A DNA stretch of 64,000 bases. Source: Hyphomicrobium sp. GTDB lineage: Bacteria > Pseudomonadota > Alphaproteobacteria > Rhizobiales > Hyphomicrobiaceae. A program made the translations under genes and the position numbers. The notes beneath the pieces are model-generated. The model was not told where the DNA came from. It saw only the letters and a program-made list of their open reading frames with translations, and did not search any database. Positions 7,915 through 59,392 of this stretch are shown piece by piece. Every line of letters begins with the position of its first letter. The first letter of the stretch is position 1. The stretch covers positions 1-64,000 of the forward strand of contig JASBSU010000036.1 of assembly GCA_030148725.1 (NCBI GenBank), in the 5' to 3' direction.

Positions 7915-7946
7915 GCCCTGCTCTCAGTCTCAGCTTTTGCGATTTA

Positions 7947-22012: not shown

Positions 22013-22014
22013 GC

Positions 22015-41036: not shown

Positions 41037-42044
41037 GTGCTCAAGCTCAAGATGAAAAAACCATCTGCGCGCGATCCCATTCGTCTCATGGAAGCAAAGG
41101 TAGCACCCATGCTTCCGACGGGACCGGGCTGGCTCTACGAACCCAAGTGGGATGGCTTCCGGTGTCTCGCGTTGAAGGATGGTTCAGACGTCGAGCTGCA
41201 GGGTAAGTCGGGGAAATCTCTGACGCGGTACTTCCCGGAGGTCGCGAAGGCCTTCAGCGAAATCCCGTTGGCGCGCGCGGCGCTGGACGGCGAGTTGCGT
41301 ATCGAGATTGACGGCGACGCCTCGTTCGAGGCGCTGCAGATGCGACTGCACCCTGCCGCCACACGCATCCAACGGCTGTCGAAGGAGAGCCCGGCGTCCC
41401 TCGTGTTGTTCGACACGCTGCTTGACGCGAAAGGCGCGCCTATTCACGAACTACCTCTCGAGAAGCGGCGAAGCGTACTCGCACGGCTTTCGCAGAAATT
41501 CGGCGACCGCCTTTCACTGAGCGAAGCCACGCAGGACATCCGGGTCGCCAAGCGATGGCTGGCGCGCGGCTACGCTGGCACGGATGGCGTCATCGCAAAG
41601 CAGTTGGATGAGCCGTACCAATTTGGCGAGCGCGCTCTTTTGAAGGTGAAGCGGATACGCACCGCAGACTGTGTCGTCGGGGGATTCAGATATCAGGCGG
41701 GCACAAAGACAGTCGGATCGCTGCTGCTCGGGCTTTATGACCAAGATGGTCTGCTGCATCACGTCGGCTTCACATCCGCGCTCGCCAACGAGGACGAACC
41801 TCAGCTTACAGCGCAGCTCGAGAAGATCATCGCGCCGCCGGGTTTCACCGGCGATGCGCCAGGTGGTCCCAGCCGTTGGGCGAACGAGCGTTCGGCGGAT
41901 TGGAAACCTTTAAAACCGAAGCTGGTGGTCGAGGTAAGCTACGATCATGTCACTGGGGAGAGGTTCCGGCACGGGACACGACTGTTGAGATGGCGTCCCG
42001 ACAAATCGCCTCGCCAGTGCACGTTCGATCAGATTGATCCTTAG
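41037..42044 (+). CDS. ATP-dependent DNA ligase, short LigC/LigD-ligase-domain type
   Basis: A 335-residue ligase. EPKWDGFRCLAL is motif I with the adenylated lysine (KxDG); LDGELRIE, TDGVIAKQ and LLKVKRIRTADCVV are motifs III-V. The C-terminal OB domain ends with HGTRLLRWRPDKSPRQCTFDQ. It lacks the polymerase and nuclease domains of full LigD, and no Ku gene is nearby. It probably seals nicks in repair. The start is GTG 41037 or, five codons on, ATG 41052; neither has a clear ribosome binding site. Confidence 0.9.
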   Translation: MLKLKMKKPSARDPIRLMEAKVAPMLPTGPGWLYEPKWDGFRCLALKDGSDVELQGKSGKSLTRYFPEVAKAFSEIPLARAALDGELRIEIDGDASFEALQMRLHPAATRIQRLSKESPASLVLFDTLLDAKGAPIHELPLEKRRSVLARLSQKFGDRLSLSEATQDIRVAKRWLARGYAGTDGVIAKQLDEPYQFGERALLKVKRIRTADCVVGGFRYQAGTKTVGSLLLGLYDQDGLLHHVGFTSALANEDEPQLTAQLEKIIAPPGFTGDAPGGPSRWANERSADWKPLKPKLVVEVSYDHVTGERFRHGTRLLRWRPDKSPRQCTFDQIDP

Positions 42045-43553: not shown

Positions 43554-43919
43554 ATGACGCCTCGGGCCAATCGCGTTCTCATTGTCGAAGACGAGCCAAT
43601 GCTGGCGATGGATCTGGAATCCATCCTGCAAAGCCTTGGCTTCGAAGTTGCCGGGCCTGCAAGTCGGATAGATACAGCCAAGCGGCTCGCGTCCGATGTT
43701 GCATGCGACGCTGCCATCCTCGACCTCAATCTCGGGGGAGCGCGCGCGGAAGCCGTCGCCGACATACTGGCGGCACGAAAGATCCCATTCATTTTTGCTA
43801 CAGGGTACGGTGACGGTTACGTCGACGAGCGCTTCGCGTCAGTGCGCGTCGTCGAGAAGCCCTACGATCAACAGACCATTGAGGGTGCGCTGAGCGAAAT
43901 GTTGCGCACTACCCTGTAG
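43554..43919 (+). CDS. Single-domain response regulator
   Basis: A 121-residue stand-alone receiver. RVLIVEDEPMLAMDLE holds the acidic pocket (Glu12-Asp13), the phosphoacceptor is Asp57 in AAILDLNLGG, ATGYGD has the Thr switch residue and VVEKPYD the conserved lysine. There is no output domain. Its pattern (DLNLGG, FATGYG) is that of receivers paired with HWE kinases. It ends 11 bp before the hybrid kinase gene and is almost surely its partner or phosphate sink. Confidence 0.92.
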   Translation: MTPRANRVLIVEDEPMLAMDLESILQSLGFEVAGPASRIDTAKRLASDVACDAAILDLNLGGARAEAVADILAARKIPFIFATGYGDGYVDERFASVRVVEKPYDQQTIEGALSEMLRTTL

Positions 43920-43930
43920 GGCTGCAGCCG

Positions 43931-46900
43931 ATGGGTCCCAAGCTGGTAGCCGATCTCATCCAGATCATTCCGGGCAATAGCGAGATGGCCCAGCGGATGA
44001 GGGCGTTGGACTGGGCCGCGACGCCGCTGGGGGCGCCGCAGGCGTGGCCGCAAAGCCTGCGCACCGCGGTGAGGATCATGCTCACCTCACGCTACGCCAT
44101 GTGGATGGGCTGGGGCGACGAGCTGACATTCCTTTACAACGACGCGTACGCGCGGATGACACTGGGTGCCAAGCATCCTTGGGCACTCGGCAGGCCGGCC
44201 GAACAGGTATGGTCGGAGATCTGGCGCGATATCGGCCCACTCGTCGATCAGGTCCTGCAGACCGCCGAGGCGACGTGGAGCGAAGGCCTGCTTCTGCTGC
44301 TCGAACGGTCCGGATATCTTGAGGAGACGTATCACACGTTCTCCTACAGTCCGCTTTCGGACGACACCGGGGCGACCGTCGGAATGCTCTGTGTCGTGAC
44401 AGAGGAAACCGAGAGGGTCATCGGGGAGCGGCGGCTGGCAACTCTTGCGCAACTTGCTGCGCAGGTATCCTCCTGCCGTAATGAGCGAGAAGTGTGCACG
44501 GCGACGGAGCAGTCACTGCTGGCTGCGCAACGGGACCTGCCGTTCGCTGCGGTCTGCCTCTTCGATGCCAACGGCAACTGTAAGCCAGCTGCGCTTGCAG
44601 GCCTCGCGCCGGATCATCGTCTGGCGGACTTTGGTACCTCCGGCTTTTGGCACGAGCACATCTCGGGTCGGCCGACCGAGCAGAAAGTTTTCCCGCTGGC
44701 GGAGCTGGGGGCCGAAGACCTGCCGACGGGCGCCTGGCGGCAACCTCCGGGACATGTCGCATTGGTTGCAATACCCGGCCAAGCGGACGATCCGCCGGCT
44801 GGCTATCTGGTCGCGGCCATCAATCCTTTTCGGGCGTACGACGAGAGCTATGCCAGTTTTCTGAGCCTGATCGCCGGCCAGATCTCGGCGCGGCTGGCCA
44901 GTGCCTGGGCATATGAAGAGGAAAAGAAGCGGGCCCAGGCGCTCGCAGAGATCGACCGCGCCAAGACAGCGTTCTTTTCCAATGTCAGCCATGAGTTCCG
45001 CACGCCCTTGACCCTGATGATCAGCCCAATCGAGGAACTCATCGAAGCAGAGGAGGACCTGCCACCACACGCCCGAAACCTTCTCGATATCGCGCACAGG
45101 AACTCTTCGCGCCTTCTGAAGCTCGTCAACTCGTTGCTCGACTTCACGCGCATCGAAGCCGGTCGCGCGAATGCGCGCTTTGAGCCTGTCGACCTTGCAG
45201 CTCTGACCCGCGATCTGGCCTCCAACTTTCGTACTGCCACAGACAAAGCTGGTCTCGGACTGAAGCTCGGCTGCCATCCGCTGCCGCGCGTGGTGCACGT
45301 CGACCGCGACATGTGGGAGAAGATTATCCTCAACCTGCTGTCGAACGCGTTCAAGTTCACGCTCGACGGGGAAATCGCGATCGAGCTCGGGAGTTCGCCG
45401 GACGGGAAACGGGCGGTCGTGCATGTGCGGGACACAGGCGTCGGCATCCCTGCGAACCAACTGCCTCGCGTCTTTGAACGGTTCCACCGCATCGAGGGGC
45501 AGCCCAGTCGATCCTTCGAGGGCTCTGGTATTGGGCTGGCGCTCGTACAGGAGCTCGTGCGTCTCCACGGCGGCGATATTTCCGTCACGAGCGAAGTCGG
45601 CAAAGGCACCACGTTCAGCGTCTCCATTCCATATGGCGACGCGCATCTGTCGAAAGACCTCATCGCAGAGCCGGCTCAATCGGCATCGACGTCCGTGCGC
45701 GCCGGCTCGTTTGTCGAAGAAGCTGTCCGTTGGCTGCCTGGTTCGGCGTCGATACCGCGTCCTCCGGTCGAAGAAGCCGGCGAGCAACCGCATGATCTCT
45801 GGCACAGGCGCCCGCGTATTCTTGTTGTCGACGATAATGCAGATATGCGCGCCTATCTGGAGCGGCTGTTGTCGCCCTATTGGGATGTCGAAACGGCTGC
45901 AAACGGCGAGCTGGCCCTGGCTGCGGTCACTGAAAATTTGCCCGACCTCGTTCTCACCGACGCGATGATGCCTCTGCTCGACGGTTTCGGACTCATCAAG
46001 CGATTGCGTGCCGACGAGCGAACGAAATCCTTGCCGATCCTGCTGCTATCGGCACGTGCCGGCGAGGAGGCGCGCATCGACGGGCTTCAGTCCGGTGCCG
46101 ACGATTACCTGACCAAGCCGTTTTCTTCGCGCGAGCTGGTCGCGCGCATCAGCGCCAACCTCAAGCTCGCCGAAGTCCGCCGGCAGGGCGAGGCGCGCGT
46201 CGAGGGCATTCTTGAAAGCATCACCGATGGCTTCCACCTCATCGATGCTGAAGGCCGGTTTACGGCTTTCAATGCAGCCGCGAAGCTCATGTTCGCCGCC
46301 AACGGCGTTGATACCTCCGATCTCATCGGCGCTGATCTGCTGAATGAGGCGTTTCCGGAAGCACGCGACAATGAAATCGGCCAGGCTATCCGCACTGCGC
46401 TGACAGAGCGCCGCCCAACGACGGCGGAAAGCTATTATAGGCCGTGGAAACGGTGGTTCTCGACGCGCAATTACCCCACGCCCGACGGCGGCGTGGCCAC
46501 GTTCTTTCAGGACATCACGGAGCGCAAGCAGGTCGAGCAGCAGCAGCGGCTGCTGACGAACGAGCTGAACCATCGGGTCAAGAACACCATCGCGATCATT
46601 CAATCGATCGCCAACCAGACGCTGCGCGATTCAGCGAGCCCGGAAGCCTTCCAGACGACCTTCTCGCAACGGCTGATGGCGCTCGCACGGGCGCACAATC
46701 TCTTGACCAATCGCGCGTGGAGCGGTGCGAACCTGCGCGACATCGTCGATGCTGCTCTCGCGCCGTTCCAGCAGCGTCTGCGCAAATCCCGGATCGACGT
46801 TTCGGGCCCCCACTATCAGCTTGCGTCCAACCTGGCCGTCTCCATGATCCTGGCGATGCATGAGCTCGCCACGAACGCCGTCAAATACGGCGCGCTGTCC

Positions 46901-47194
46901 AATGACACCGGCCAGGTGACGCTCGCCTGGGAGATCGATACGACGAGCCGACAGATCGTGCTGACCTGGGCCGAGCAAGGGGGTCCGCCGGTTCAGGAAC
47001 CGACGCGACGGGGTTTTGGGCGGCGCCTCATCGAGGCCACCGCGGAACAGCTTGGGGGAGACATCCAGCTGGTGTTTCCGACGGATGGCGTCGTCTGCCG
47101 AATTAGGTTCCCTTTGTCGGCGAACGATGTGCTGTCGGACGACCAAGATGCTATCGGCACTGTCGGAGAAGAGAAGGCGGTTCCCGCAGGCTAA
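43931..47194 (+). CDS. Hybrid sensor kinase with two kinase cores (HisKA + receiver + PAS + HWE kinase)
   Basis: A 1087-residue protein without clear membrane segments. Residues 1-170 resemble a PAS sensor; 180-335 a GAF-like sensor. The first kinase core has His354 in SHEFRTPL and ATPase boxes DTGVGIPANQL and GSGIGLALVQEL. A receiver follows with Asp677 in LVLTDAMMP. A PAS domain (IDAEGRFTAFNAAAKLMF) leads to an HWE-type core with His881 in ELNHRVKNTIAIIQS and the N-box MHELATNAVKYGALS. Both histidines and both ATPases look intact. It is cotranscribed with the single receiver and is tail-to-tail with the NodS-like gene with no spacer. Such kinases often act in general-stress or light/redox sensing; the signal is unknown. 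Confidence 0.93.
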   Translation: MGPKLVADLIQIIPGNSEMAQRMRALDWAATPLGAPQAWPQSLRTAVRIMLTSRYAMWMGWGDELTFLYNDAYARMTLGAKHPWALGRPAEQVWSEIWRDIGPLVDQVLQTAEATWSEGLLLLLERSGYLEETYHTFSYSPLSDDTGATVGMLCVVTEETERVIGERRLATLAQLAAQVSSCRNEREVCTATEQSLLAAQRDLPFAAVCLFDANGNCKPAALAGLAPDHRLADFGTSGFWHEHISGRPTEQKVFPLAELGAEDLPTGAWRQPPGHVALVAIPGQADDPPAGYLVAAINPFRAYDESYASFLSLIAGQISARLASAWAYEEEKKRAQALAEIDRAKTAFFSNVSHEFRTPLTLMISPIEELIEAEEDLPPHARNLLDIAHRNSSRLLKLVNSLLDFTRIEAGRANARFEPVDLAALTRDLASNFRTATDKAGLGLKLGCHPLPRVVHVDRDMWEKIILNLLSNAFKFTLDGEIAIELGSSPDGKRAVVHVRDTGVGIPANQLPRVFERFHRIEGQPSRSFEGSGIGLALVQELVRLHGGDISVTSEVGKGTTFSVSIPYGDAHLSKDLIAEPAQSASTSVRAGSFVEEAVRWLPGSASIPRPPVEEAGEQPHDLWHRRPRILVVDDNADMRAYLERLLSPYWDVETAANGELALAAVTENLPDLVLTDAMMPLLDGFGLIKRLRADERTKSLPILLLSARAGEEARIDGLQSGADDYLTKPFSSRELVARISANLKLAEVRRQGEARVEGILESITDGFHLIDAEGRFTAFNAAAKLMFAANGVDTSDLIGADLLNEAFPEARDNEIGQAIRTALTERRPTTAESYYRPWKRWFSTRNYPTPDGGVATFFQDITERKQVEQQQRLLTNELNHRVKNTIAIIQSIANQTLRDSASPEAFQTTFSQRLMALARAHNLLTNRAWSGANLRDIVDAALAPFQQRLRKSRIDVSGPHYQLASNLAVSMILAMHELATNAVKYGALSNDTGQVTLAWEIDTTSRQIVLTWAEQGGPPVQEPTRRGFGRRLIEATAEQLGGDIQLVFPTDGVVCRIRFPLSANDVLSDDQDAIGTVGEEKAVPAG

Positions 47195-47791
47195 TCAACG
47201 GCGCCGAAATCTGTCCACCCGCCAAGCGCCGTATGAGAGGCTGTAGTCTGCCCTGCCAAAGCGGCGCCTCGTCATGAGCGTAAGCTGCTCGAGGGTACAT
47301 TCGGAGTCGCTGAATCTGCGAACATGATTGGCGCTCACGAGGATGCCTCCAGGTTTGAGCGCCAGCTTTGCCATGTCGAGGACATCGCGAAGGACTGCGA
47401 GCGGCAAATAATAAAGTACCTCGCTCGCAATGACGGCGTCATACGCGCCCCGGCTGAGCGTCATTGGTAACACGCCCTCGATGATGGAGACGTTGGGAAG
47501 ATCACCTGCCTCCGCGCGCGCGAGCGCCACTGCCGCGGGCGAGGCTTCTATAGCGATGAGCGATTGGAAATGGCGGGCAAGTCCGCGCGTCGTTGTTCCA
47601 TTGCCGCAGCCGAGTTCGACGCCCTTCGAGAGCTTCTGCCTGCCGAGTGCCCGTTCAACGGCGCTGCGCTTTTGGAGCTCCACCCACGACATGCGCGCAC
47701 CCCAGGGATCGTGATCGGCCCGGTAGAGAGCATCGAAATGATCGAGATGCCGTTGCAGGGCGGCGTCATCGTGCGATTTCGAAGCGCTCAT
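47195..47791 (-). CDS. NodS-like SAM-dependent methyltransferase
   Basis: A 198-residue class I methyltransferase. The N-terminus HFDALYRADHDPWGARMSWVELQKR, motif I GVELGCGNGTTTRGLA, IAIEASPAAVALA and ASEVLYYLP follow the nodulation protein S family, whose founding member N-methylates the deacetylated glucosamine of Nod factors. It overlaps the PIG-L gene by 26 bp and ends the operon. The pairing deacetylase then methyltransferase suggests N-methylation of a freed amino sugar or similar amine. No nod genes of the nodA/nodC type are present. Confidence 0.85.
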   Translation of the reverse strand: MSASKSHDDAALQRHLDHFDALYRADHDPWGARMSWVELQKRSAVERALGRQKLSKGVELGCGNGTTTRGLARHFQSLIAIEASPAAVALARAEAGDLPNVSIIEGVLPMTLSRGAYDAVIASEVLYYLPLAVLRDVLDMAKLALKPGGILVSANHVRRFSDSECTLEQLTLMTRRRFGRADYSLSYGAWRVDRFRRR

Positions 47792-48482
47792 AAGGCCCCA
47801 CCATTGAAGCGATATGACTTTCCGTCAGACAGAACCCTTGCGGATCGTCGCCGATCAATTCTCCCAGCTGGCTGGCGTGACAGCGAAGCGCTGTGCGCTT
47901 GGTCGCCAGCGTCGTTGAAACGTCGACAAACACGCTCGATGTTTCTTCAGGCGCTGGCTGATCCGCCGCGCTGCCGGTGATCGGTGTCCACACCATGTAT
48001 TCAGCCAGCGTCGCGCGGCAATCGGCTAGCGACATTGCATTTCGCACCAGCTCGAAAGCGAACCGGTGGTCGCCATGCGGTTCGCGGCGCCAGGTCGTCA
48101 AAACCACCTCGGGGCTCTCGGTACGAAAAGCCTCAAGCAACGCCTCAATCGCGCGGGCAATTGCACCAGCACCAAGAGCGCCCGTTGCAGCGTCAGGCAA
48201 ATCAAGGAACGTCGGATCGGATGTGATACCCAGCACGTCGAGCGCCTCGAGAAACTCATCCCGCCTCTGCGCAGCAACGCGCCGGCGCGGCCATTCCTGG
48301 CTGCCAGGATGCGACGCGCCGCCGTCGGTTATAAGGATCGGTTTGACCTTGATCCCGCGTTCCGCGGCCAGTGAAAGGACGCCGCCGCAGCCAAGCGTCT
48401 CATCGTCAGGATGCGGAATTGCTACCAAGAGGCTTCGGCGCAATCCGGTGAGCGCCGCGAACTCGTCGAAGCTAAGCCGCAT
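47766..48482 (-). CDS. PIG-L family deacetylase
   Basis: A 238-residue zinc-dependent de-N-acetylase of the PIG-L/LmbE family. The metal motif AIPHPDDETLGCGG has His24, Asp26-Asp27 and the second site is RREPHGDHRFAF. Family members remove acetyl from N-acetylglucosamine attached to lipids, inositol or antibiotics. It overlaps the acyl-CoA dehydrogenase gene by 11 bp upstream and the methyltransferase by 26 bp downstream, so the three are translated together. I recall annotated fusions of PIG-L and methyltransferase domains in other bacteria, which fits a sequential reaction. Confidence 0.9.
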   Translation of the reverse strand: MRLSFDEFAALTGLRRSLLVAIPHPDDETLGCGGVLSLAAERGIKVKPILITDGGASHPGSQEWPRRRVAAQRRDEFLEALDVLGITSDPTFLDLPDAATGALGAGAIARAIEALLEAFRTESPEVVLTTWRREPHGDHRFAFELVRNAMSLADCRATLAEYMVWTPITGSAADQPAPEETSSVFVDVSTTLATKRTALRCHASQLGELIGDDPQGFCLTESHIASMVGPYERFEIAR

Positions 48483-49560
48483 CGAAAGCGGCCTTGTAGC
48501 TATCTCCGGCTGCCGCCGTGCCCAAACGGACCCTCGCCATGTCCGGCGCTGGCTGGCGCACGTAGACCATCAGATCGCTCATTGCCAAGTGCAAAGGGTG
48601 CGTCTCCATCAAGCCTGCGCAACCGACCGAGCGCATTGCTCGCGGCAGCACTCGGTCGACGGTCTCCTCCAGGACTATGCGTGCTGCGTCCGCGATCAGT
48701 GGGCCGTCCGACGCGTTCGTTGCTGCCTCGCTCCACGCAATTGCAGGCGCGACACGGGCATACGCCTCTTTGACAAAGCAGAAGGCGGCTTCCAAATCGG
48801 CGACGACGGATGCCAGCCTCGCGGCCTGGTGCGGATCATCCGCGCGACCGGTCTTACTCAGGTGCATCCGCATTGCGTCCCAAACTGCCAAGGCCCCACC
48901 CAACTGCGCGGTGACAAAGCGAATAGCGCCAGCGCCGAAGAACGGCTGACGCTCATAGGCTCCGGGACTGCCGAGCAAGTCACTTTCGCTGATAGGCAAC
49001 GCGTTGAGATCGACTGCGAAGCTGCGCGTCGCCTTCATGCCCGAGGCGCGCCACCAAGCGGCGTCAAAGCGGCCTTCGAGACGCTTTGCGTCGATCAGAA
49101 GCAGCTGGTTTGTGCCTTGGCGCGTCTTGGCCGCAACGACTGCGAGCGCCACGCTGTCCGCACCTGAGGCGAATGTCTTGCGCCCTGTCAGCTGCAGCGT
49201 ATCGTCATCCAGTCGCGCGGGATTGGTGGGATCGTCAGCGCCCCAGACCCCCATGAGCTTGCCGGAGTCCGCAACCCGGAATGCCGCCTCCTTCTGCTCG
49301 TGAGATCCGAGGCGCGCGACCAATTGCACGGCATTGGCGTGGCCCTCGAAAAGCCGCGCGATGCTGAGATCGCCCCGGCCGAGGGCGACGAGCGTATCAA
49401 ACATTGACGGCACGCCTTGTTCGGGCTCGGTCGCGCGTCGCACGAACGCTGTCGCCAGCATCCTGTCGCGATTGAGCACATGGAATGCCTGCTCTAGCCG
49501 AGCGCTTTCATCCGACGTTCGCGCCTGCCGCAGAGCGGCTGTGAGGTCTGCGATTGTCAT
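48472..49560 (-). CDS. Acyl-CoA dehydrogenase family protein
   Basis: A 362-residue protein with the ACAD layout: helical N-terminus, beta domain (GKLMGVWGADDPTN, LTGRKTFASGADSVALAVV) and helical C-terminus (MRSVGCAGLMETHPLHLAMSDLMVYVRQPAPD). It is slightly shorter than typical ACADs (about 380) and I cannot place the catalytic glutamate with confidence. The start at 49560 overlaps the GT2 stop as ATGA. Placement with a glycosyltransferase, deacetylase and methyltransferase is unlike fatty-acid degradation loci and suggests desaturation of an acyl chain, or oxidation/hydroxylation, on a specialised product. Confidence 0.85.
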   Translation of the reverse strand: MTIADLTAALRQARTSDESARLEQAFHVLNRDRMLATAFVRRATEPEQGVPSMFDTLVALGRGDLSIARLFEGHANAVQLVARLGSHEQKEAAFRVADSGKLMGVWGADDPTNPARLDDDTLQLTGRKTFASGADSVALAVVAAKTRQGTNQLLLIDAKRLEGRFDAAWWRASGMKATRSFAVDLNALPISESDLLGSPGAYERQPFFGAGAIRFVTAQLGGALAVWDAMRMHLSKTGRADDPHQAARLASVVADLEAAFCFVKEAYARVAPAIAWSEAATNASDGPLIADAARIVLEETVDRVLPRAMRSVGCAGLMETHPLHLAMSDLMVYVRQPAPDMARVRLGTAAAGDSYKAAFDAA

Positions 49561-50525
49561 TTGAGATCCTGCCAAGCGCGTCGGTCACCGCTGCTGAAGT
49601 TTGCAATGGCGCGATCCAAGCCTTGGATGGCCTCCTCGGCCAGTTCCCAGTCCGTTATCGTGGTCGCGAATGCACTGGCATGACTTGGGTGGCGGGTAAT
49701 CCGCCGAGTGGTCAGCCGGTGGTTCTCCACCATGCAGGCTACGCCGTTCGCCACAGCTCTCGTGCAATTCGCGATGTCTTCGGCCATGCCGCCTGCTGCG
49801 CGTCCGACCGTGCGCGCGAGGACATCGACAGTTGCCCCCGATTGCCGATCTACGTGCAGCCCTGCGGTGTCCGCGGCACGCACGAACTGCAAGTCCTCAT
49901 TGTTCTGGATGGGCCGAAACCCCCCAAGTTGCCTGTAGGCGTTGACGGTCGCCGCAATTCCCGCCGCGCCGTAATCGTCATGAAGCGGGGGATGCGGGAT
50001 AGTTCCGGTGCGGACGGTCTCCACGAGTTGGCGCACGCGATGGCGCCACTTGGCTCTCATTGCGCCCCATGCGAGCGCTCGTTTGCAGGCCGGCTCGAAT
50101 GGATCGTCAATGCACTCGATCTTCGCGAGGACCACGTCTGCGCCTCGGTAAAAGGCATGCTCCATACGCGCGAACAAGTCAGGCCTCACTCGTGAGTCCG
50201 CGTCGGTCGTCAGTAGCAGATCGCCCGCTTCTCCGCCGAAACGTCTCAAAGCTTGCCTCACGGCGGTCAGTCGCGCGCCGCCAGCATGAGCCAGACCAGC
50301 GGGAAGTTTGCCCGCGGTCACGATCGCGCTCAGATGGCGGCAGTGGCGCAGTGCGTAATCGGCCGCTTGTGCGGTGGTGTCTGAGCAATTGTTTGCAAAC
50401 ACCAGCACATTGACATCGAATGCCGAGCATGCGGCGGCCTGATCGAGCGCCGCGAGCGCGCCTTCGATCCGCTGGACCTCATTTTTTGCCGGGAGGGCGA
50501 CGATCCATCTACGGGATGCCGACAT
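49557..50525 (-). CDS. Family 2 glycosyltransferase
   Basis: A 322-residue GT-A enzyme. WIVALPAKNEVQRIEGAL opens the fold, VLVFANNCSDTTAQAAD and LLTTDADSRVRPDLF carry the nucleotide and metal (DxD) residues, and FRPIQNNEDLQFVRAA resembles the acceptor/base region (ED). No transmembrane segment is visible, unlike NodC. It is the first gene of the four-gene coupled operon; its promoter should lie in the 119 bp before glgP's end. It may build the sugar part that the deacetylase and methyltransferase then modify. Confidence 0.87.
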   Translation of the reverse strand: MSASRRWIVALPAKNEVQRIEGALAALDQAAACSAFDVNVLVFANNCSDTTAQAADYALRHCRHLSAIVTAGKLPAGLAHAGGARLTAVRQALRRFGGEAGDLLLTTDADSRVRPDLFARMEHAFYRGADVVLAKIECIDDPFEPACKRALAWGAMRAKWRHRVRQLVETVRTGTIPHPPLHDDYGAAGIAATVNAYRQLGGFRPIQNNEDLQFVRAADTAGLHVDRQSGATVDVLARTVGRAAGGMAEDIANCTRAVANGVACMVENHRLTTRRITRHPSHASAFATTITDWELAEEAIQGLDRAIANFSSGDRRAWQDLK

Positions 50526-50644
50526 CGATACATCGGTCTCCTGTACGAACTGTCACGACCGTTTCCGATCAATCCGCCGACGGCGCAAAAGGTTCCAACC
50601 TCTGGCACCGCGTCCCGAAGCGCCATGGGCGCTGGTAAATGGAT

Positions 50645-53062
50645 TTACTGCGGGTCGCCGCATCGCCAGATGTCGCGCGCATATTCGTCGATCGCCCGGT
50701 CCGCCGAGAAATGACCCATGTGGGCGACGCTGTTGATGGTTTGCCTCGTCCATGCCTCCTGGTCTGCCCACAGCGCGTCGACGGCCCGCTGTGCGCGCCA
50801 ATAGTCAGCGAAATCCGCCAGAACCATATAGCGGTCGCCGCGATTGATCAGCGAATCGACGATCGGCTCGAAGCGGTGCGGATCCTCAGGTGAGAAGTCG
50901 CCGCGTGCGATCTGCTCAAGCACGGTACGGAGCGGTTCGTTGCTGCTGACGAAGCTCATGGGGGCGTAGCCGTCACGCTGCAACCGGGCGACATCCTCAA
51001 TCTCCAGACCGAACGGCACAATGCCACCCTCTCCGATCGCCTTTGCTATTTCGATGTTTGCGCCATCGCGCGTGCAGAGGGTGATAGCGCCATTCAGCGC
51101 AAGCTTCATATTCCCGGTGCCAGATGCCTCCGTGCCCGCGAGCGAAATCTGTTGCGACAGGTCGGCGGCGGGCATGAGACGCTCGGCTAGGGAGACGTTG
51201 TAGTTCGGAAGGAAGTGAAGCTGCAGCCGGTCCGAGGTCTCCGGGTCGTTGTTGATGCGCCGACCGACATCATGCGACAGCTTGATGATCAACTTGGCGA
51301 GCCAGTAACTCGAAGCGGCCTTGCCCGCTATCAACACGACGCGCCGGGGCCAATAGGCGTCCGGATCGGCCTTCATGGCATTCCAGCGCGCGATGACACT
51401 CAAAATGTTGAGCAACTGACGTTTGTATTCGTGGATGCGCTTGGCCTGCACATCGATCAAGGCGTCGATGGCGATTTCGGCACCCGTTCTTGCGGCAATG
51501 ACCTTCGCCAAACGCAATTTGGCGGCTCGTTTGACGGCCGTGAACTCGGCGTGGAATGTCGGATCGTCGGCCAGCGGCGCCAATCCGCTTAAGTCGAACG
51601 CCTCACGCCAGCGTGCGCCCAGCCTGCGGTCGATGAGAGCGCAAAGCTCGGGGTTCGATTGGAAAAGCCAGAGCCGCGGAGAAATTCCGTTGGTGACATT
51701 GCAGAAGAGGTCCGGCTGCAGCTTGCTGAATTCCGAGAACAGGCTGTCTCGCACGAGACGGCTATGGAGTTCGGATACGCCGTTGACCTTGTGGCTCATG
51801 ACGACCGAAAAGCGGCCCATATTCACCGCGGCGGTATTTTCGCTGACGACGGCGACACTCTCGGGCCGCACGTCGCTTCGCGCGGCGACACTGCGCAGCA
51901 GCTGGCGATTGATTTCCTCGATGATCTCGAGATGACGCGGCGCGACACGCCGCATGAGCTCGCTCTGCCAGACCTCCAGCGCTTCGGGCATGAGTGTGTG
52001 GTTGGTGTAGCTGAAGACGGCGCGCGTCAGTTCCAGAGCTTTGTCCCAGGGCTGGCGATGCTCGTCGACGAGGAGACGGACAAGCTCGGCCGGGGCAAGC
52101 GCGGGGTGCGTATCGTTGAGATGGATTGCGACCTTCTCCGGGAGGTGGTCCCAATCGGAGTGGTCCTTGAGATAGCGAGTGACCAGATCCTGCACCGAGG
52201 CGGATGCAAAGAAATGCTCCTGGCGAAGCCGCAGCTCGCGTCCCTCCGGCGTGCTGTCGTCCGGATACAGAAGCCGGGTGACGGTCTTGGAACGGATCTT
52301 GGCTGATACGGCTTCGAGATAATTGCCACGGCTGAAAGTGCTGAAGTCGAGAGCGGCAACGGGGCGAGCGCTCCACAGGCGCAGAGTGTTCACGGTGTCG
52401 TTGCGATAGCCCGGGACGAGGAGATCATGTGCAACGGCGATGACGCGTTCGGCCGGATGCCAGATTGCTCGATAGTCACGGTGCTCGACGTGGCCGCCGA
52501 AGCCTACGACGAAGGCGGGCTCCGGGCGATCAAGCTCCCACGCGTTCCTGTGATTGAGCCAGTCGTCGGGCTGTTCGACCTGCCAGCCGTCCGCGAACTC
52601 CTGGCGAAACATTCCGTATTCGTATCGGAGCCCATAGCCTATGCCGTGCAACCCCCGGCACGCCATGGACTCGAGGAAGCACGCTGCTAGCCGGCCAAGG
52701 CCTCCGTTACCCAAGGCGGGCTCGGACTCGAGCTCGATCAGATCTTCCAGAGACGCGCCGAGCTGAGACAGCGCCTTGGCGCACTCGTCTCGCAACCCCG
52801 TCGCCATCAGGGCGCCATCGAGTTGCTTGGCCACCAGGAACTCCATTGAGAGATAGCAGACCTGCTTGTTCTTGGACTCGCGCAGCCGCGCGTTCATCTG
52901 ATGGAATCGATCGACCACACGGCCGCGGATCGCGAGCGATGTCGCCTGCAGCCAATCGCGCGGCGTCGCCTCGTGCTGCGAAACGCCGACGTTGCGCGTC
53001 AGCTCGTGGACCAGTTCCTGGCGCAGCCGCTGTACTTCATCCTGGTCGGTAAATTTTTGCAC
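50645..53062 (-). CDS. glgP: Glycogen/maltodextrin phosphorylase
   Basis: An 805-residue GT35 phosphorylase that releases glucose-1-phosphate from alpha-1,4-glucans. CYLSMEFLVAKQL, ELESEPALGNGGLGRLAACF, AIHLNDTHPALAPAE and the PLP site EASGTGNMKLALNG (Schiff-base Lys) are conserved. The length fits. It is the last gene of the seven-gene operon, 18 bp after treY, the only junction without overlap. It degrades the glycogen built by glgB and partners, and its dextrin products feed malQ and glgX. Confidence 0.96.
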   Translation of the reverse strand: MQKFTDQDEVQRLRQELVHELTRNVGVSQHEATPRDWLQATSLAIRGRVVDRFHQMNARLRESKNKQVCYLSMEFLVAKQLDGALMATGLRDECAKALSQLGASLEDLIELESEPALGNGGLGRLAACFLESMACRGLHGIGYGLRYEYGMFRQEFADGWQVEQPDDWLNHRNAWELDRPEPAFVVGFGGHVEHRDYRAIWHPAERVIAVAHDLLVPGYRNDTVNTLRLWSARPVAALDFSTFSRGNYLEAVSAKIRSKTVTRLLYPDDSTPEGRELRLRQEHFFASASVQDLVTRYLKDHSDWDHLPEKVAIHLNDTHPALAPAELVRLLVDEHRQPWDKALELTRAVFSYTNHTLMPEALEVWQSELMRRVAPRHLEIIEEINRQLLRSVAARSDVRPESVAVVSENTAAVNMGRFSVVMSHKVNGVSELHSRLVRDSLFSEFSKLQPDLFCNVTNGISPRLWLFQSNPELCALIDRRLGARWREAFDLSGLAPLADDPTFHAEFTAVKRAAKLRLAKVIAARTGAEIAIDALIDVQAKRIHEYKRQLLNILSVIARWNAMKADPDAYWPRRVVLIAGKAASSYWLAKLIIKLSHDVGRRINNDPETSDRLQLHFLPNYNVSLAERLMPAADLSQQISLAGTEASGTGNMKLALNGAITLCTRDGANIEIAKAIGEGGIVPFGLEIEDVARLQRDGYAPMSFVSSNEPLRTVLEQIARGDFSPEDPHRFEPIVDSLINRGDRYMVLADFADYWRAQRAVDALWADQEAWTRQTINSVAHMGHFSADRAIDEYARDIWRCGDPQ

Positions 53063-53080
53063 GATGCCCGCCTGACCTTT

Positions 53081-55765
53081 TCACCCGCTCCTCAGCACCG
53101 CGACCGGCAGGTCACGCAACACTTCAGACATATTCAATTCTGCGACGTCGCCGAACTCTCGCCCCGTCAGGACGTCGACGAGCGGACCGCAACCGGACGG
53201 CAAATGAACACGCGTGTCTGCCCAGCGCGGGCCGGGAATACGCGGGGCTTCCGCATCGAGATGCTCGAGTGAGAGCCGCGTCCCGAGCACGACGACGCAG
53301 CCCGTCTCGTGCTTCCTCGCGAAGACTATCACATGCTTGCTCAGCGGGCCGGTCACCTTCAATGCGATATAGGTGGCGTCCAGAAGCCGTGGGCCGAGCG
53401 TGCGTCGCAGCGCCAATCCGGCGCGCAGGATGCGCTGTTTGATCGCGCCGGTCGTCCAGGTGTCGAGCAATGCATCCGAAGATATCTCCGCTTTCGCCAT
53501 GCTGTCATTCTGGACGAAATCGACGGGGCGGCGATTGTCCGGATCGACCAGCGCCAGATCCCAGATTTCCGTGCCCTGGTAGATATCGGGGACACCGGGG
53601 GCGAACAGCTTGAGCACACTCTGCGTCAAGCTATTGACGGCGCCGGCGCGTACGAAGGGCTGGATCGCAGCGCCGAAGTCGTTGAGAAACGCCTTCGAGC
53701 GTTTTGGCTCGAGCGCCGCCTCAACAAACGACGTCAGCATGTCTTCATACGCCTCGTCCGGCTGCGTCCAGGTGGTGTGCAGCTTTGCCTCTCGCGCCGC
53801 CTTGACCATGAACGCGCTCATCCGGTGGGACAGTACCTGCATTGCGTCAGCATCCGGCGGTCGCGATTGCGCCGGCCAGGCCCCGAGCAAAGCCTGATAG
53901 AACATCCATTCCGTGTCGCGATCTGGATGCGCCTCGCCCCGGCGCAGATCGGCATTCAGCTCTGCCCAACGGCGAACCGCTTCTTCCCACCTGCGCGGGG
54001 CTTCGCTGATGGCGTAGATGCGCGCGCGGGCGTCCTCTCCGCGCTTGGTATCGTGCGTGGCGGTGGCCGAGAGGGCTGCCGGATGCCTCTCCCGCGCCTG
54101 CATGGCTGCGTGAAAGTCATCGATGGAACCGCCAAGGGGATCGAGCTCGCCGCCGACCTCGTTGACGCCAATCAACCGATTATAGCGGTAGAATAGCGTG
54201 TCCTCGAAGGCCTTTGCCGTCAGCGGTCCCGTCGTCTGCTGAAAGCGCGCCGAGAAGCGCAATGCCGCGGTGCGTCGTGACGCATCGGCGAAATCGAGCT
54301 TGAACAGGCGCCGGAGAAACTCGAACGCCGCGTCGTCCTCCACTTCCCGTGCTCGCTGCGCCGCCTCAAGGGCGCTTTGCAGAATGTTGTCGTCTTCCAC
54401 GCTACTGCCGTTGGCGTCAACGTAGGTGCGGTAGACGGGCATTGCGGACGCCAGTTCGACAATGGCGCGGCGCATCGTGTCTCGACCGAGGTCCCGGGTG
54501 GCGATGTCCTCCGACGCGATGGTCGAGGCAAGATCGGCCAGATGGTCGAGTTCTCCGGCGAGATTTCGGGTGAGCGTACGGCGTTTGGTCATGACGACCT
54601 CCGCCTCGAGGTCGCGCTTCTCCTGCACAAATTCTTCGTATGCGTGCGTCAGGTCTTCCCGCGAAGCGTCGTCGACGAGCAGCTGGCCCAGTGCCGCTAT
54701 GAACTCGTATCCGGTGGTTCCGGCGACGGACCAAGATTCGCGCAACTCCTCGCCGGGTCCCAGGATTTTCTCGACGATAATGTAGAAGTCGTCGCGGCCG
54801 ACCGCAGTGCGGAGTCTGTTCAGATACCCGGCAGGGTCGGCCAGGCCGTCGATGTGATCTACGCGCAACCCATGCACCAACCCCTCACGGACGAGGTCGA
54901 GGACCGTTCGATGCACATCATCGAACACGTTGGGTTGCTCGACCCTGACGCCCACAAGCTCGGCAATCTCGAAGAAGCGACGATAGGTGAGGTTCTCGCG
55001 CGCCGTCCGCCAGTGCGCGAGACGCCAGACCTGCTGTTCGTGGACTTCGTGCAGAGCCTGCCAATCACCGTTGATCTTTTCGAGAGTGCTCTCTAGCACC
55101 TCTGACGCTTTCGCGTCGACGAGGCACTGGGCGAACGCGTCCTTCAGTTCTGCTCCCGCCGCTGCAGTGGCGGTCGCGAATTTCAGCGCCAGCGCGCCGA
55201 AGATATCCTGATCAGCCGCGGTTAAGATTCCTGCGTAACTCGGCGGGTTGAGCGGCAACCTCATGTCACCGTACTGGAGCGCGATTTCGCCGATTTCCGG
55301 TTCGGCCACCAGCTGCAGCCCGTCCGATTGCAGCACGGCGCCGTAGTGATCTCCGAGTCGAGGCACAATCAGCTTCTGCGCTGCCCAGTCGACGTCGAAG
55401 TGGTTCGCGAAGGGGCTGTTCGCACCCCATTCAAGCACGCTCCGCCACCACGGGTTTTCCGGATGCGCGCCCATATGGTTGGGCACGATATCCAGGACGA
55501 TGCCGATCCCTGCCTCCTGCATGGCGCGCGAGAGAGCGGCAAAACCATCGAACCCACCGAGTTCGGGATCGATCTCGTTGAAGTCGATGCCATCGTAGCC
55601 GTGGGTCGAGCCCGGTGCCGCGGTGAAGATCGGCGACAGGTACAAGTGCGATATGCCCAGCCCTGACAGATAGGGCGCAAGCTTTGCAGCGCATGCGAAA
55701 TCCATCCCGTTGCGCAACTGCAGCCGGTAGGTTGCCGTCGGCACGTTGGTGATCGCGGTGGTCAT
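53081..55765 (-). CDS. treY: Malto-oligosyltrehalose synthase
   Basis: An 894-residue GH13 enzyme that turns the reducing-end bond of maltodextrin into an alpha,alpha-1,1 trehalose linkage. TATYRLQL at the N-terminus, GISHLYLSPIFTAAPGSTHGYD, VPNHMGAH and HGLRVDHIDGLADP (nucleophile Asp) are diagnostic. The start at 55765 overlaps the malQ stop as ATGA; a long upstream frame to 56170 is a shadow of malQ. TreZ from the same operon then frees trehalose. Confidence 0.96.
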   Translation of the reverse strand: MTTAITNVPTATYRLQLRNGMDFACAAKLAPYLSGLGISHLYLSPIFTAAPGSTHGYDGIDFNEIDPELGGFDGFAALSRAMQEAGIGIVLDIVPNHMGAHPENPWWRSVLEWGANSPFANHFDVDWAAQKLIVPRLGDHYGAVLQSDGLQLVAEPEIGEIALQYGDMRLPLNPPSYAGILTAADQDIFGALALKFATATAAAGAELKDAFAQCLVDAKASEVLESTLEKINGDWQALHEVHEQQVWRLAHWRTARENLTYRRFFEIAELVGVRVEQPNVFDDVHRTVLDLVREGLVHGLRVDHIDGLADPAGYLNRLRTAVGRDDFYIIVEKILGPGEELRESWSVAGTTGYEFIAALGQLLVDDASREDLTHAYEEFVQEKRDLEAEVVMTKRRTLTRNLAGELDHLADLASTIASEDIATRDLGRDTMRRAIVELASAMPVYRTYVDANGSSVEDDNILQSALEAAQRAREVEDDAAFEFLRRLFKLDFADASRRTAALRFSARFQQTTGPLTAKAFEDTLFYRYNRLIGVNEVGGELDPLGGSIDDFHAAMQARERHPAALSATATHDTKRGEDARARIYAISEAPRRWEEAVRRWAELNADLRRGEAHPDRDTEWMFYQALLGAWPAQSRPPDADAMQVLSHRMSAFMVKAAREAKLHTTWTQPDEAYEDMLTSFVEAALEPKRSKAFLNDFGAAIQPFVRAGAVNSLTQSVLKLFAPGVPDIYQGTEIWDLALVDPDNRRPVDFVQNDSMAKAEISSDALLDTWTTGAIKQRILRAGLALRRTLGPRLLDATYIALKVTGPLSKHVIVFARKHETGCVVVLGTRLSLEHLDAEAPRIPGPRWADTRVHLPSGCGPLVDVLTGREFGDVAELNMSEVLRDLPVAVLRSG

Positions 55766-57576
55766 GCGTGCCGCGGTCGCTCGGCCGCGATCGCCTCCAG
55801 TGTGCGGCGGAGCAGTGGATCGAGCAGCATTTCCTCCACGGTTATGGGAAGCTTGCGCCTCCAGTTGGCGTGCTGCCTGTCCGTTCCGGGAAGGTTGACC
55901 ATCCCAGATGAGCCGGCGATGTCTTCCAGTTGAACAGCGAAGAGCCAAGCGGGCGAGCGTGCGAGGTAACGGTGGACGGCCGTAAATACGTCTTCCGGCG
56001 TACGGGCGCTCTGGTGATCGACCGCGTTTGCATCCAGCAGATGCTCGCGTGCTAAAGACGCTGAAAGCTTCTGGCGGTCGCTCGCGCGTTGTGCGCGCGC
56101 GTGGTCCACATCTCCATCGCATTCGTAAAGCTGGCAGTAGGCCCGCGCGTCGATATCCGAAGCGCACCACCAGCCATGCAACGGAGGCAGATCATGCGTC
56201 GCGACGCATGCGAGAGCTTCTTTCGGATAGCTATGGGGCGGAGCGAACATGCCGTCCCCCGTGCGCTCGAAGTAGAATACGCGGTAGCTCAGTATGTTGT
56301 GCGCCTGCATCCTCTCGCGGAACCCCGGCGGCACGGTGCCAAGGTCCTCGCCGATCACCATGCAGCGATTGGCCTCGGAGCTGCGGCCAAGCACGTCGAG
56401 CAGCGCTTCGATTGGGTAGCGGACGTAACCTCCGCTGCGGGCGTCTGATCCGGCCGGTAGCCAATAGAGCCTCGCCAGTCCCATGGCGTGGTCCAGGCGC
56501 ACGGCTCCAGCGACCTTCATCGCTGCTTGAACCTCCTGCTTCACCGGCTCGAACTGACGTGCCGCCAGCGTGGAAGGCCGCATGGGCGTGAGGCCCCAAT
56601 CCTGCCCGAGGTGATTGAACATGTCCGGGGGCGCACCCACGCGTGCGCCAGTTGCATAGAGCTCTTTGTCTGACCAAGCCGAGACACCGTCCGGTGACAC
56701 GCCGACGGCGAGATCGAGGTACAGCCCGATGCGCATTCCCGCTGTGCGCGCGCGCCGTTGGACTTCGGCGAGCTGCTCGGAAGCCACCCACTGCAGCCAC
56801 TTGTGGAAATCGACCTGCCGCTCGTGTGCAGCCGCAAATTTGGCGACGGCGCTTGAGGTCGGACCATGGAATTCCTGCGGCCAACCATGCCAGCCCGCGC
56901 CAAGCCCGTCGGCGGCGAAGTGCTCACTCAGTGCCTCGAAGACGGCGAAACGCTTCAGCGCATCGGCGCCTGCAGTGCAGAACGACACGAAGGCCGGGTC
57001 CTTCCCGCGTTGCGCGAACGCCGCTTCGAGAAGCGCGCGCTTCAGGGTTGCCACGTTCGTGTAATCCACGAGGTCGAGGCTGCGCAGCTCTTGCAGCTTG
57101 CCGCGCCAATCGTACAGATCGGCTTCCCGCACCACCCGATCAACGGCGATGTAGATCGGATTGAGAAACTGCTTGCTCGAAGGCGAATATGGGCTGGCGC
57201 GGTCCGGGTCTGCCATGAACAGCGCATGCAGCGGATTGACGCCGATGAAGTCGGCACCGAGCGGCGCGAGCAGTTCTGCCAAACGCGCGAGGTCCTCGAA
57301 GTCGCCGATGCCGCAGTTGCGCTGCGAGCGGACGCCGTAGAGCTGCACAGCGATGCCCCATGCCCGCGAGTGTCTCAGCCATTCCGGCACAAAGCACGGG
57401 GGTGCGCCTGCGGCGGCAGCGTCGATACTCGGCGACGCATCACTCTCGGGCGTGCCCAGCAGGGCTAGCAGAGCGTGCTTCACGTCATCGGAAATGACAC
57501 GAACTTCGCCGCTCTCGCTGATGTACGACGTCTCAATACCGGCACGGTCGGTCAGCTCGGCGAGGGATTTATCCAT
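55762..57576 (-). CDS. malQ: 4-alpha-glucanotransferase (amylomaltase)
   Basis: A 604-residue GH77 enzyme that transfers maltodextrin segments. AVQLYGVRSQRNCGIGDFEDL, FIGVNPLHALF, GAVRLDHAMGLARLYW (nucleophile Asp) and VIGEDLGTVPPGFRERM are conserved. The bacterial N-terminal extension is short. The start at 57576 overlaps the treZ stop by 8 bp; the earlier ATG at 57600 lacks family support. It lengthens short dextrins so that they suit glgP and treY. Confidence 0.95.
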   Translation of the reverse strand: MDKSLAELTDRAGIETSYISESGEVRVISDDVKHALLALLGTPESDASPSIDAAAAGAPPCFVPEWLRHSRAWGIAVQLYGVRSQRNCGIGDFEDLARLAELLAPLGADFIGVNPLHALFMADPDRASPYSPSSKQFLNPIYIAVDRVVREADLYDWRGKLQELRSLDLVDYTNVATLKRALLEAAFAQRGKDPAFVSFCTAGADALKRFAVFEALSEHFAADGLGAGWHGWPQEFHGPTSSAVAKFAAAHERQVDFHKWLQWVASEQLAEVQRRARTAGMRIGLYLDLAVGVSPDGVSAWSDKELYATGARVGAPPDMFNHLGQDWGLTPMRPSTLAARQFEPVKQEVQAAMKVAGAVRLDHAMGLARLYWLPAGSDARSGGYVRYPIEALLDVLGRSSEANRCMVIGEDLGTVPPGFRERMQAHNILSYRVFYFERTGDGMFAPPHSYPKEALACVATHDLPPLHGWWCASDIDARAYCQLYECDGDVDHARAQRASDRQKLSASLAREHLLDANAVDHQSARTPEDVFTAVHRYLARSPAWLFAVQLEDIAGSSGMVNLPGTDRQHANWRRKLPITVEEMLLDPLLRRTLEAIAAERPRHA

Positions 57577-59392
57577 TCTCCGCGCCTCCCTCGAAGCCAA
57601 GTATCACCGACTTCGGCGGCACTTGCCCGAGGCGCAGCGACGCGCAGGCGCCGTCCGACGACTCATAAAGAAGCGTGAGATCTGCGTGCGTCGAGGTGGC
57701 GACCGGCACCTCTCCAAGGTTCACCGCCATGCGCAGCGTCTGACCATCGGCCATCCGCCAAGCGACGCCGAATGCCTCAGCTGACCACGGCTCGGTGTTC
57801 CCTTGGCCACTCCTCATCGCGGCGAAGTGCGGCACGAGGCGCTTGCGTATCGCGAGCAGATTGCGGACCAGCGCAATGCGAGCCGCCCCAGCGGGAGTAT
57901 TCTTGAAGTTCCAGTCGATCCTCGACGCTTCGGCCGTTGCGAGTGCGTTTGGATCAGGGATTTTCAAACGGTTCGCCGGGTCGGCGAACTGAGGCCATCT
58001 TTTGAACTCCGCGCGGCGCCCGTCCCGCACCGCCGCAGCAAGGTCGCCTGTGAAATCGGTGAAGAAGCAGAACGGCCGGCGCTCGCCCCACTCCTCGCCC
58101 ATGAACAGAAGCGGTATGTGCGGCGACAACAGAAGAATCGCCGTGAGGAGATCGACTGTCTTTTCGTCCGACAGGGCGATCAGACGCTCGCCGAAGGCGC
58201 GATTACCGATCTGGTCGTGGTTCTGCAGGAAGTCGACGAAAGCGCTCGGCGGCAAGTGTTTGCTGCAAACACCGCGCTGCTCCTCTTTACTGGGCGATGT
58301 CTCGCCCTGGTAGACGTAGCCCTCCGCGAGGCATCGCGCCATCTGCGATACATCGATGTCGTAGTCGAAGTAGTAGCCGTCGCGTTCCCCTGTAGCGAGG
58401 ACATGCGCGGTATGATGAAAGTCATCGTTCCATTCTGCTGAATAGAGACGCACGACTCCATCGGAGTCGCGCTCGTGCAGGTTGACGATATTACGCTCGT
58501 CCTCGGTCGTCAGGTGCACGTGCCGGTCGGTGATCGTGCGACGGACCTCGGCGGCAAGCTCCTCCAAGATATGCGTCGGCGATGGATCATGGATCTGGTC
58601 GATGGCATCGAGGCGCAGCCCGTCCAATCGAAACTCTTCCAGCCAATAAAGGGCGTTCTCTATGAAGAACTGCCGTACCGGCTGCTTCTCATAGGCGATG
58701 GCTGCGCCCCAGGGCGTGTGGCGCTCGGGATGGAAGAAATCGGGCGCGTACAGGTGCAGGTAGTTTCCGTCGGGGCCGAAGTGATTGTAGACGACGTCCA
58801 GCAACACCATCAACTCGCGCTCGTGCGCGGCGTCGACCAGCCGCTTGAGCGCTTCGGGTCCGCCATAGACGATGTGCGGTGCATAGAGCAGCACTCCGTC
58901 GTATCCCCAGCCGCGTGTGCCGCTGAACTGGGCGATCGGCATCAGCTCGATGGCGGTTACGCCGAGCGATGCCAAATGATCGAGCTTCTGTTCTATTCCC
59001 GCGAACGTGCCATTCGGGGTGAAGGTCCCTGTGTGAAGCTCGTAAATGACAGCTTCTTCCCAAGGGCGGCCGCGCCAATGGTCGCTGCCCCATGAGAATG
59101 CAGCGCCATCGACGAGGCGCGAAGGGCCGTGGACATCACTCACCTGCTCGCGAGCGGCTGGATCGGGCACGCGTCGGCCGTCGATTTCGAATGAATACCC
59201 TCCGTTGACCGGGACCGCGTCAGTCTCGAGCTCGAACCAGCCGTCGTCCGACCGCTGCATCGGCGCGCGGATTTCTCCAACGGTTCCGACTAGCGTCACA
59301 GACCGTTGAGCAGGAGCCCACAGCCGGAAGCGCGCGCCACCATTCTTGAGCACGGTTGCGCCCCATGAGCCGGTGAACGCCGACGCCGTCAT
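57569..59392 (-). CDS. treZ: Malto-oligosyltrehalose trehalohydrolase
   Basis: A 607-residue GH13 enzyme with N-terminal beta domain (GGARFRLWAPAQRSVTLVG). AVIYELHTGTFTPNGTF, LDGLRLDAIDQIHD (nucleophile Asp), and FLQNHDQIGNRAFGER are conserved. It cuts trehalose from maltooligosyl-trehalose made by treY. Its ATG overlaps the glgX stop as ATGA. Confidence 0.96.
   Translation of the reverse strand: MTASAFTGSWGATVLKNGGARFRLWAPAQRSVTLVGTVGEIRAPMQRSDDGWFELETDAVPVNGGYSFEIDGRRVPDPAAREQVSDVHGPSRLVDGAAFSWGSDHWRGRPWEEAVIYELHTGTFTPNGTFAGIEQKLDHLASLGVTAIELMPIAQFSGTRGWGYDGVLLYAPHIVYGGPEALKRLVDAAHERELMVLLDVVYNHFGPDGNYLHLYAPDFFHPERHTPWGAAIAYEKQPVRQFFIENALYWLEEFRLDGLRLDAIDQIHDPSPTHILEELAAEVRRTITDRHVHLTTEDERNIVNLHERDSDGVVRLYSAEWNDDFHHTAHVLATGERDGYYFDYDIDVSQMARCLAEGYVYQGETSPSKEEQRGVCSKHLPPSAFVDFLQNHDQIGNRAFGERLIALSDEKTVDLLTAILLLSPHIPLLFMGEEWGERRPFCFFTDFTGDLAAAVRDGRRAEFKRWPQFADPANRLKIPDPNALATAEASRIDWNFKNTPAGAARIALVRNLLAIRKRLVPHFAAMRSGQGNTEPWSAEAFGVAWRMADGQTLRMAVNLGEVPVATSTHADLTLLYESSDGACASLRLGQVPPKSVILGFEGGAENG

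Follow-up and report, generated by a model that had tools for sequence, protein, structure and literature searches.

What might four overlapping genes of Hyphomicrobium sp. make together, when they encode a GT2-type glycosyltransferase, a flavoprotein with the acyl-CoA dehydrogenase fold, a PIG-L-family N-deacetylase and a NodS-like methyltransferase? The genes lie in the window that we analyzed, a stretch of 64,000 nucleotides (NCBI GenBank assembly GCA_030148725.1, contig JASBSU010000036.1, positions 1 to 64,000), and are referred to below as the cassette (Table 1). A previous reading of this DNA (the sequence-only reading) took them to act together and suggested as their product a small glycolipid or modified amino sugar, made by steps akin to Nod-factor tailoring and not known to be described in the literature. 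What we observe across genomes is a gene set with a usual order, inherited together and set in a stress-gene neighbourhood. The four genes probably make a sugar-based compound aiding stress survival, since distantly related bacteria share the set, in many cases with trehalose, catalase or DNA-repair genes next to it. In keeping with the sequence-only reading, no paper on the four-gene set was recognized among the matches listed in the open-access literature (subscription journals and preprints lay outside the scope of the search).

The cassette genes are inherited together

In the window, the GT2 stop and the flavoprotein start share an ATGA (49557-49560, a 4 bp overlap), while the flavoprotein and PIG-L genes overlap by 11 bp (48472-48482) and the PIG-L and methyltransferase genes by 26 bp (47766-47791). 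The flavoprotein start is the ATG at 49560; the TTG at 49575 is merely the first possible start of the frame. We searched 398 Pseudomonadota genomes, including the Hyphomicrobium source genome, with profiles for the flavoprotein (E <= 1e-30), PIG-L and methyltransferase (both E <= 1e-35), which matched 33, 35 and 40 genomes, respectively. PIG-L was present in 31/33 flavoprotein genomes, the methyltransferase in 32/33 and both in 30/33 (hypergeometric values of 2e-39 for PIG-L and 1e-38 for the methyltransferase, which are not exact probabilities because the genomes are related). Two flavoprotein genomes lacked PIG-L (G466, G530) and one the methyltransferase (G488); where there was no flavoprotein, PIG-L was found in 4 genomes and the methyltransferase in 8. 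The near-complete overlap of the three families means that the grouping is not due to chance, and together with the conserved gene order it bears out the proposal that the genes belong together.

The distribution of the cassette is patchy, with a cassette-level match in 1/16 other genomes of the same family (G011). The cassette is also found in Deinococcus, Nostoc, Hymenobacter, a Puniceicoccaceae (verrucomicrobial) metagenome-assembled genome and Kitasatospora; it spans several phyla, and conservation is not limited to close relatives, a concern raised by the sequence-only reading. A distant relative of the flavoprotein (23 % identity) occurs on two records named Acinetobacter phage (CAKLQH020000004.1 and CAKLQF020000002.1; 232 and 306 kb, respectively), with similar places on 19 Acinetobacter records of a plasmid collection.

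Gene order was compared in 20 alphaproteobacterial stretches, from 29 genomes with strong matches, and in 19 stretches from other classes of the phylum, labelled beta/gamma after relatives such as Comamonas, Cupriavidus, Pandoraea and Acinetobacter. The flavoprotein and methyltransferase genes occurred in 20/20 and 19/19 stretches, respectively, joined by PIG-L in 17/20 and 17/19 (one of the latter weak); all four families were seen in 16/20 alphaproteobacterial stretches. Typically the flavoprotein gene is followed by PIG-L and then by the methyltransferase gene. The GT2 gene comes first in the window, L020 and L158-L161, last in L025 and most beta/gamma loci, and last and convergent in 22/95 loci of a set rich in Methylobacterium. 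Six records lacked an adjacent PIG-L gene: 4 Methylobacteriaceae genomes have a close PIG-L elsewhere (274-298 bits), and none was found in Arboricoccus or one plasmid record. In Deinococcus, a helicase or TnpB gene splits two copies (in Deinococcus wulumuqiensis L153, a TnpB-family gene at 7902-9254 separates the flavoprotein and PIG-L genes) and one copy has no methyltransferase nearby. A quick tree leaves the window flavoprotein as a long lone branch, unplaced among the Sphingomonas-type, beta/gamma and main alphaproteobacterial groups; its root is unsure because the outgroup falls inside.

Some loci carry additional copies or domains. Three treZ-treY-glgX loci (L165, L167, L178) have another PIG-L gene after the cassette, and among Methylobacterium L029-L038 and L104 ten loci have two flavoprotein-like open reading frames, or parts of them, near the methyltransferase gene, possibly through duplication. 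Five of six Deinococcus plasmid records have an extra N-terminal domain of about 400 residues on the flavoprotein (L021 6543-8882, L153 5522-7894, L155 5603-7966, L156 5648-7891, L157 5579-7927). The L021 domain matched no Pfam family, nor the two glycosyltransferases with which it was compared (the window GT2 and one from Novosphingobium). We therefore rejected it as a glycosyltransferase and did not use the fusion as evidence.

Stress genes recur beside the cassette

Neighbouring genes were counted with fixed reference proteins (E <= 1e-15), using as controls 60 hand-set 17.5-kb stretches from 20 flavoprotein-carrying genomes. A trehalose/glycogen, catalase or Ku/ligase gene was found in 19/39 genome-drawn loci vs. 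1/60 controls (Fisher 1e-8), divided into 8/20 alphaproteobacterial and 11/19 beta/gamma loci (19/40 if a 21st alphaproteobacterial stretch is added). The enrichment held for trehalose/glycogen genes alone (9/39 vs. 1/60, p 0.0009) and for catalase alone (10/39 vs. 0/60, p 4e-5). Large catalases, Mn catalase, Dps, Ku, ligases, otsA/otsB and ferritin-like proteins are among the neighbours in named records. The four genes stand between otsA and otsB in Comamonas endophytica and after otsB-otsA in L169, while the cassette follows treZ-treY-glgX in L165, L167 and L178 (one genus) and shares an island with GlgE, Ku, ligase, GlgX and TreY in L179. HWE kinases were dropped as steady neighbours (1/20 less biased alphaproteobacterial loci vs. 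3/60 controls, with a query that would also match other histidine kinases).

The glycogen/trehalose neighbourhood, mentioned in passing by the sequence-only reading, proved to be the informative part. Because trehalose, catalase and end-joining genes recur beside the cassette in distant lineages, its stress role is far more secure than its chemistry. In the excerpted text of one study, katE and otsA/otsB, which are neighbours and not cassette genes, drop together in an Acinetobacter baumannii dksA mutant (PMC10325922). The excerpted text of another, on the drying of an Acinetobacter, reports no prominent catalase induction and down-regulation of acyl-CoA dehydrogenases, and does not name the four-gene set (PMC13130816).

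EcfG-type promoters in some alphaproteobacteria

The consensus GGAAC-N16/17-CGTT of EcfG, the general-stress sigma factor, counted on both strands of 2.92 Mb of cassette loci, occurred 45 times. Nine of these sites fell within one 500-bp bin before convergent GT2 genes, vs. an estimated ~0.65; they come from six genus-level groups, with four sites from Ancylobacter. A perfect motif was present upstream of the GT2 gene in 9/39 regions scored. With a matrix built from 24 Sphingomonas melonis sites, upstream regions outscored their own opposite strand for both the flavoprotein (p 0.0015, n=70) and GT2 genes (p 0.0013, n=39), related species being counted apart. The window GT2 site scores 12.9 (rank p 0.008 in the window), its last element departing from the GTT consensus. 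A perfect site lies 120 bases before the response regulator gene upstream of the HWE kinase (p 0.0015), weak sites precede the SDR and ligase genes (p 0.05 and 0.03, respectively), and the site before treY is not significant (p 0.06). NepR is encoded in the source genome.

These motifs lend uneven support to control of the cassette by EcfG in some alphaproteobacteria. The EcfG regulon of S. melonis Fr1, as given in the excerpted text of PMC6599016, resembles the cassette loci in holding a trehalose cluster (treY, malQ, treZ, glgX), Ku, catalases and a glycosyltransferase/exopolysaccharide run (3505-3509), with a similar promoter motif. It differs in that no PIG-L or acyl-CoA dehydrogenase gene is named there.

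Enzyme families of the cassette

The PIG-L protein is well above its Pfam cut-off (PF02585, 92.7 vs. 28.2 bits), and its HPDDE and HxDH residues, which we take to form the metal site, are invariant in 20/20 aligned proteins. Its best profile matches of solved structure were diacetylchitobiose deacetylase and TT1542 (91 bits each), followed by BshB1 (70 bits); BshB1 was also the best NCBIfam match, at 69.2 bits vs. an equivalog cut-off of 182.5. The methyltransferase exceeds the cut-off of the NodS family (PF05401, 40.6 vs. 24 bits) and falls far below that of the NodS equivalog (47 vs. 300 bits); its profile (A5) matched the uncharacterized methyltransferase 4isc best (165 bits), with NodS second (110 bits). 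In public annotation, the Gene Ontology term 'nodulation' is attached to the methyltransferases of L024, L026, L027, L154, L155, L157, L158, L160-L162 and L164, and so reaches Deinococcus, Sphingomonas and Paracoccus; it was probably transferred from the NodS family. The GT2 protein is just above its cut-off (PF00535, 24.7 vs. 23.3 bits), and its predicted model (mean predicted local distance difference test score, pLDDT, 81.8) has a GT-A fold, with WrtF as best match (Z 21.9, root-mean-square deviation 2.3 over 180 residues). A scan with PHROGs and PADLOC (E <= 1e-5) matched the methyltransferase to phrog_4752 and mad2 and PIG-L to phrog_11796, and neither the flavoprotein nor GT2 to any entry; we took the matches as generic domains and rejected a phage or defence origin.

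The flavoprotein is probably an oxygenase, to judge from its profile (A2), which matched DszC (84 bits), 5z8t (77), TdsC (75) and MsuC (73) ahead of the best acyl-CoA dehydrogenase, 4u83 (67), nitrososynthase (67) and KijD3 (65). The class-D flavin monooxygenases (DszC, TdsC and MsuC, with the nitrososynthases KijD3 and DnmZ) share the fold of the predicted model (pLDDT 87.4; Z 34.4, root-mean-square deviation 2.9 over 347 residues). They differ from it in sequence (about 17 % identity), and the cassette family has motifs of its own, EGH in 69/78 rows (also in 1/6 outgroup rows) and D[LV]...RQ in 75/78. As a lone query the window protein finds just TdsC (22 bits), and it lies below the NCBIfam cut-offs for SfnB and DszC. 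It also misses the Pfam cut-off for Acyl-CoA_dh_M (19.2 vs. 33.3 bits). Near the C-terminus, where medium-chain acyl-CoA dehydrogenases presumably have their catalytic glutamate, the stretch reads DLxxYLRQPxPD, with RQP and no glutamate. Since class-D monooxygenases match slightly better by profile, work on an acyl chain appears doubtful, and the acyl-CoA dehydrogenase role assumed by the sequence-only reading was not upheld (84 vs. 67 bits, with structures tied).

A proposed pathway and its alternatives

We propose, with about even confidence, that the cassette is a conserved biosynthetic unit of the general stress response making an N-methylated amino-sugar glycoside. After the GT2 enzyme has transferred an N-acetylhexosamine (HexNAc) onto an acceptor, the acetyl group of this sugar would be stripped by the PIG-L protein, and the NodS-like enzyme would N-methylate the amine so freed. 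Oxidation of the product, possibly at the same nitrogen, may be the task of the flavoprotein, which would then work as an oxygenase and not as an acyl-CoA dehydrogenase, and the glycoside would be made alongside trehalose and catalase under stress. The chemistry that most simply unites the enzymes is loss of the acetyl group from an amino sugar and then its N-methylation. The resemblance to nitrososynthases would be in keeping with an oxygenase that works on that amine, although the sulfur-oxidizing relatives score higher. A wider version, which we consider rather improbable, is that of a widespread stress metabolite, an N-methylated amino-sugar glycoside that may also be N-oxygenated and may be tied to the trehalose pool. 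It would join trehalose and catalase in protecting several phyla from desiccation and oxidative stress, with an amino-sugar-oxidizing flavoprotein at its centre.

Several observations weigh against the amino-sugar glycoside proposal. The cassette was found in 0/7 genomes of the same genus; trehalose/glycogen genes were near it in just 2/20 less biased alphaproteobacterial loci and in 1/52 Methylobacteriaceae-type loci, where catalase was near in 2/52. No EcfG site significant at 0.05 was present in 50/70 flavoprotein and 21/39 GT2 upstream regions, nor before glgP (p 0.50) or glgB (p 0.63) in the window. By structure, DszC and TdsC tie with butyryl-CoA dehydrogenase at Z 34.4. DszC and MsuC oxidize sulfur, so that oxidation at nitrogen is a guess. 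The substrates, order of steps, product and role of the cassette are inferred.

Nod-factor tailoring (NodC, NodB, NodS, NodA) resembles the cassette in its glycosyl transfer, N-deacetylation and NodS-like methyltransferase. It differs in its neighbours, the cassette lying among stress and not nod genes and being present in Deinococcus, Nostoc and Gammaproteobacteria. Because the deacetylase is PIG-L and the methyltransferase far below the NodS equivalog cut-off, the cassette is Nod-like in chemistry at most, and membership in the Nod-factor pathway was rejected. A search for NodA gave no match in the source genome, and none in the control genomes either. An amino-sugar product fits the PIG-L and NodS-like enzymes, so that this part of the sequence-only reading stands; a glycolipid is possible, but no result points to a lipid. 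The bacillithiol and mycothiol pathways also combine a glycosyltransferase with a PIG-L deacetylase, the former of another family; since the cassette falls below the NCBIfam cut-offs, membership in either was rejected. A thiol pathway like them appears extremely improbable. BshB1 is the top NCBIfam match of PIG-L, but its cut-off is not reached, a GT2 stands in place of BshA's GT4 and no cysteine ligase was seen in the conserved set.

A serious rival, which we consider possible and somewhat unlikely, is that cells under stress use the cassette to make or trim a polysaccharide or glycolipid of their surface, and not a free small molecule. Richer versions include further glycosyltransferases, GT4 among them (Novosphingobium L027, Sphingobium L162, Jiella L163), or GT1 and UDP-galactopyranose mutase (Deinococcus L155, L157), and the S. 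melonis exopolysaccharide run is EcfG-dependent. Most beta/gamma versions, however, show no more than the four genes, their single glycosyltransferase being small, and no flippase or polymerase recurred among the cassette records examined. An acyl-chain version along the lines of the sequence-only reading, in which the flavoprotein would introduce a double bond into an acyl-CoA destined for a glycolipid, is improbable: the fold is that of acyl-CoA dehydrogenases, and the Deinococcus relative exceeds the Pfam cut-offs for their N- and C-terminal domains, whereas the window protein stays below its cut-off, scores higher with class-D monooxygenases and has RQP at the presumed glutamate position. 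Very improbable, too, is mere co-regulation of separate pathways by the stress response. The genes are split in some genomes, with PIG-L elsewhere in 4/6 records searched and in G250 and G365, but the three families stay near one-to-one in the 398 genomes even where split, and their order is conserved across phyla.

For general stress regulons the regulators are well mapped, but little of the chemistry is known. A set inherited together through several phyla, repeatedly beside genes for trehalose, catalase or end joining, hints at a protectant that has been overlooked. For these families, 'acyl-CoA dehydrogenase' and 'nodulation' may be misleading as database names.

Surroundings of the cassette in the window

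The four genes, their overlaps and their neighbours were all located as the sequence-only reading had described, and their coordinates confirm that a sensor kinase and glycogen/trehalose genes adjoin the cassette. The last base (47194) of the hybrid HWE kinase gene (43931-47194, forward strand) directly adjoins the end of the methyltransferase frame, and left of it lie genes for the response regulator, an SDR, the ligase and a Crp-type regulator. On the other side, upstream of the GT2 gene and 119 bp from its start, glgP (50645-53062, cassette strand) opens the glycogen/trehalose genes.

Table 1. Positions of the cassette and adjoining features in the window
Feature	Position	Strand	Basis or remark
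GT2-type glycosyltransferase (GT-A fold)	49557..50525	-	Pfam PF00535 and predicted model
Acyl-CoA-dehydrogenase-fold flavoprotein, probably oxygenase	48472..49560	-	Profile comparison and predicted model
PIG-L-family N-deacetylase	47766..48482	-	PF02585 and invariant residues
NodS-like S-adenosylmethionine (SAM) methyltransferase	47195..47791	-	PF05401 and profile comparison
Imperfect EcfG-type promoter GGAAC-N17-GATT	50571..50596	-	71 bases before GT2 start
Response regulator and hybrid HWE histidine kinase	43554..47194	+	Convergent with cassette
Glycogen/trehalose genes glgP, treY, malQ, treZ, glgX, glgB	50645..63770	-	Neighbourhood
ATP-dependent DNA ligase	41037..42044	+	PF01068, 80.3 bits; neighbourhood

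Elsewhere in the window, 17122-23220 holds a polysaccharide cluster with nucleotide-sugar epimerases, GT2, GT4 and a flippase-like protein, and a single 832-residue frame at 27390-29888 has matches to a sulfatase domain as well as to a GT25 glycosyltransferase domain.

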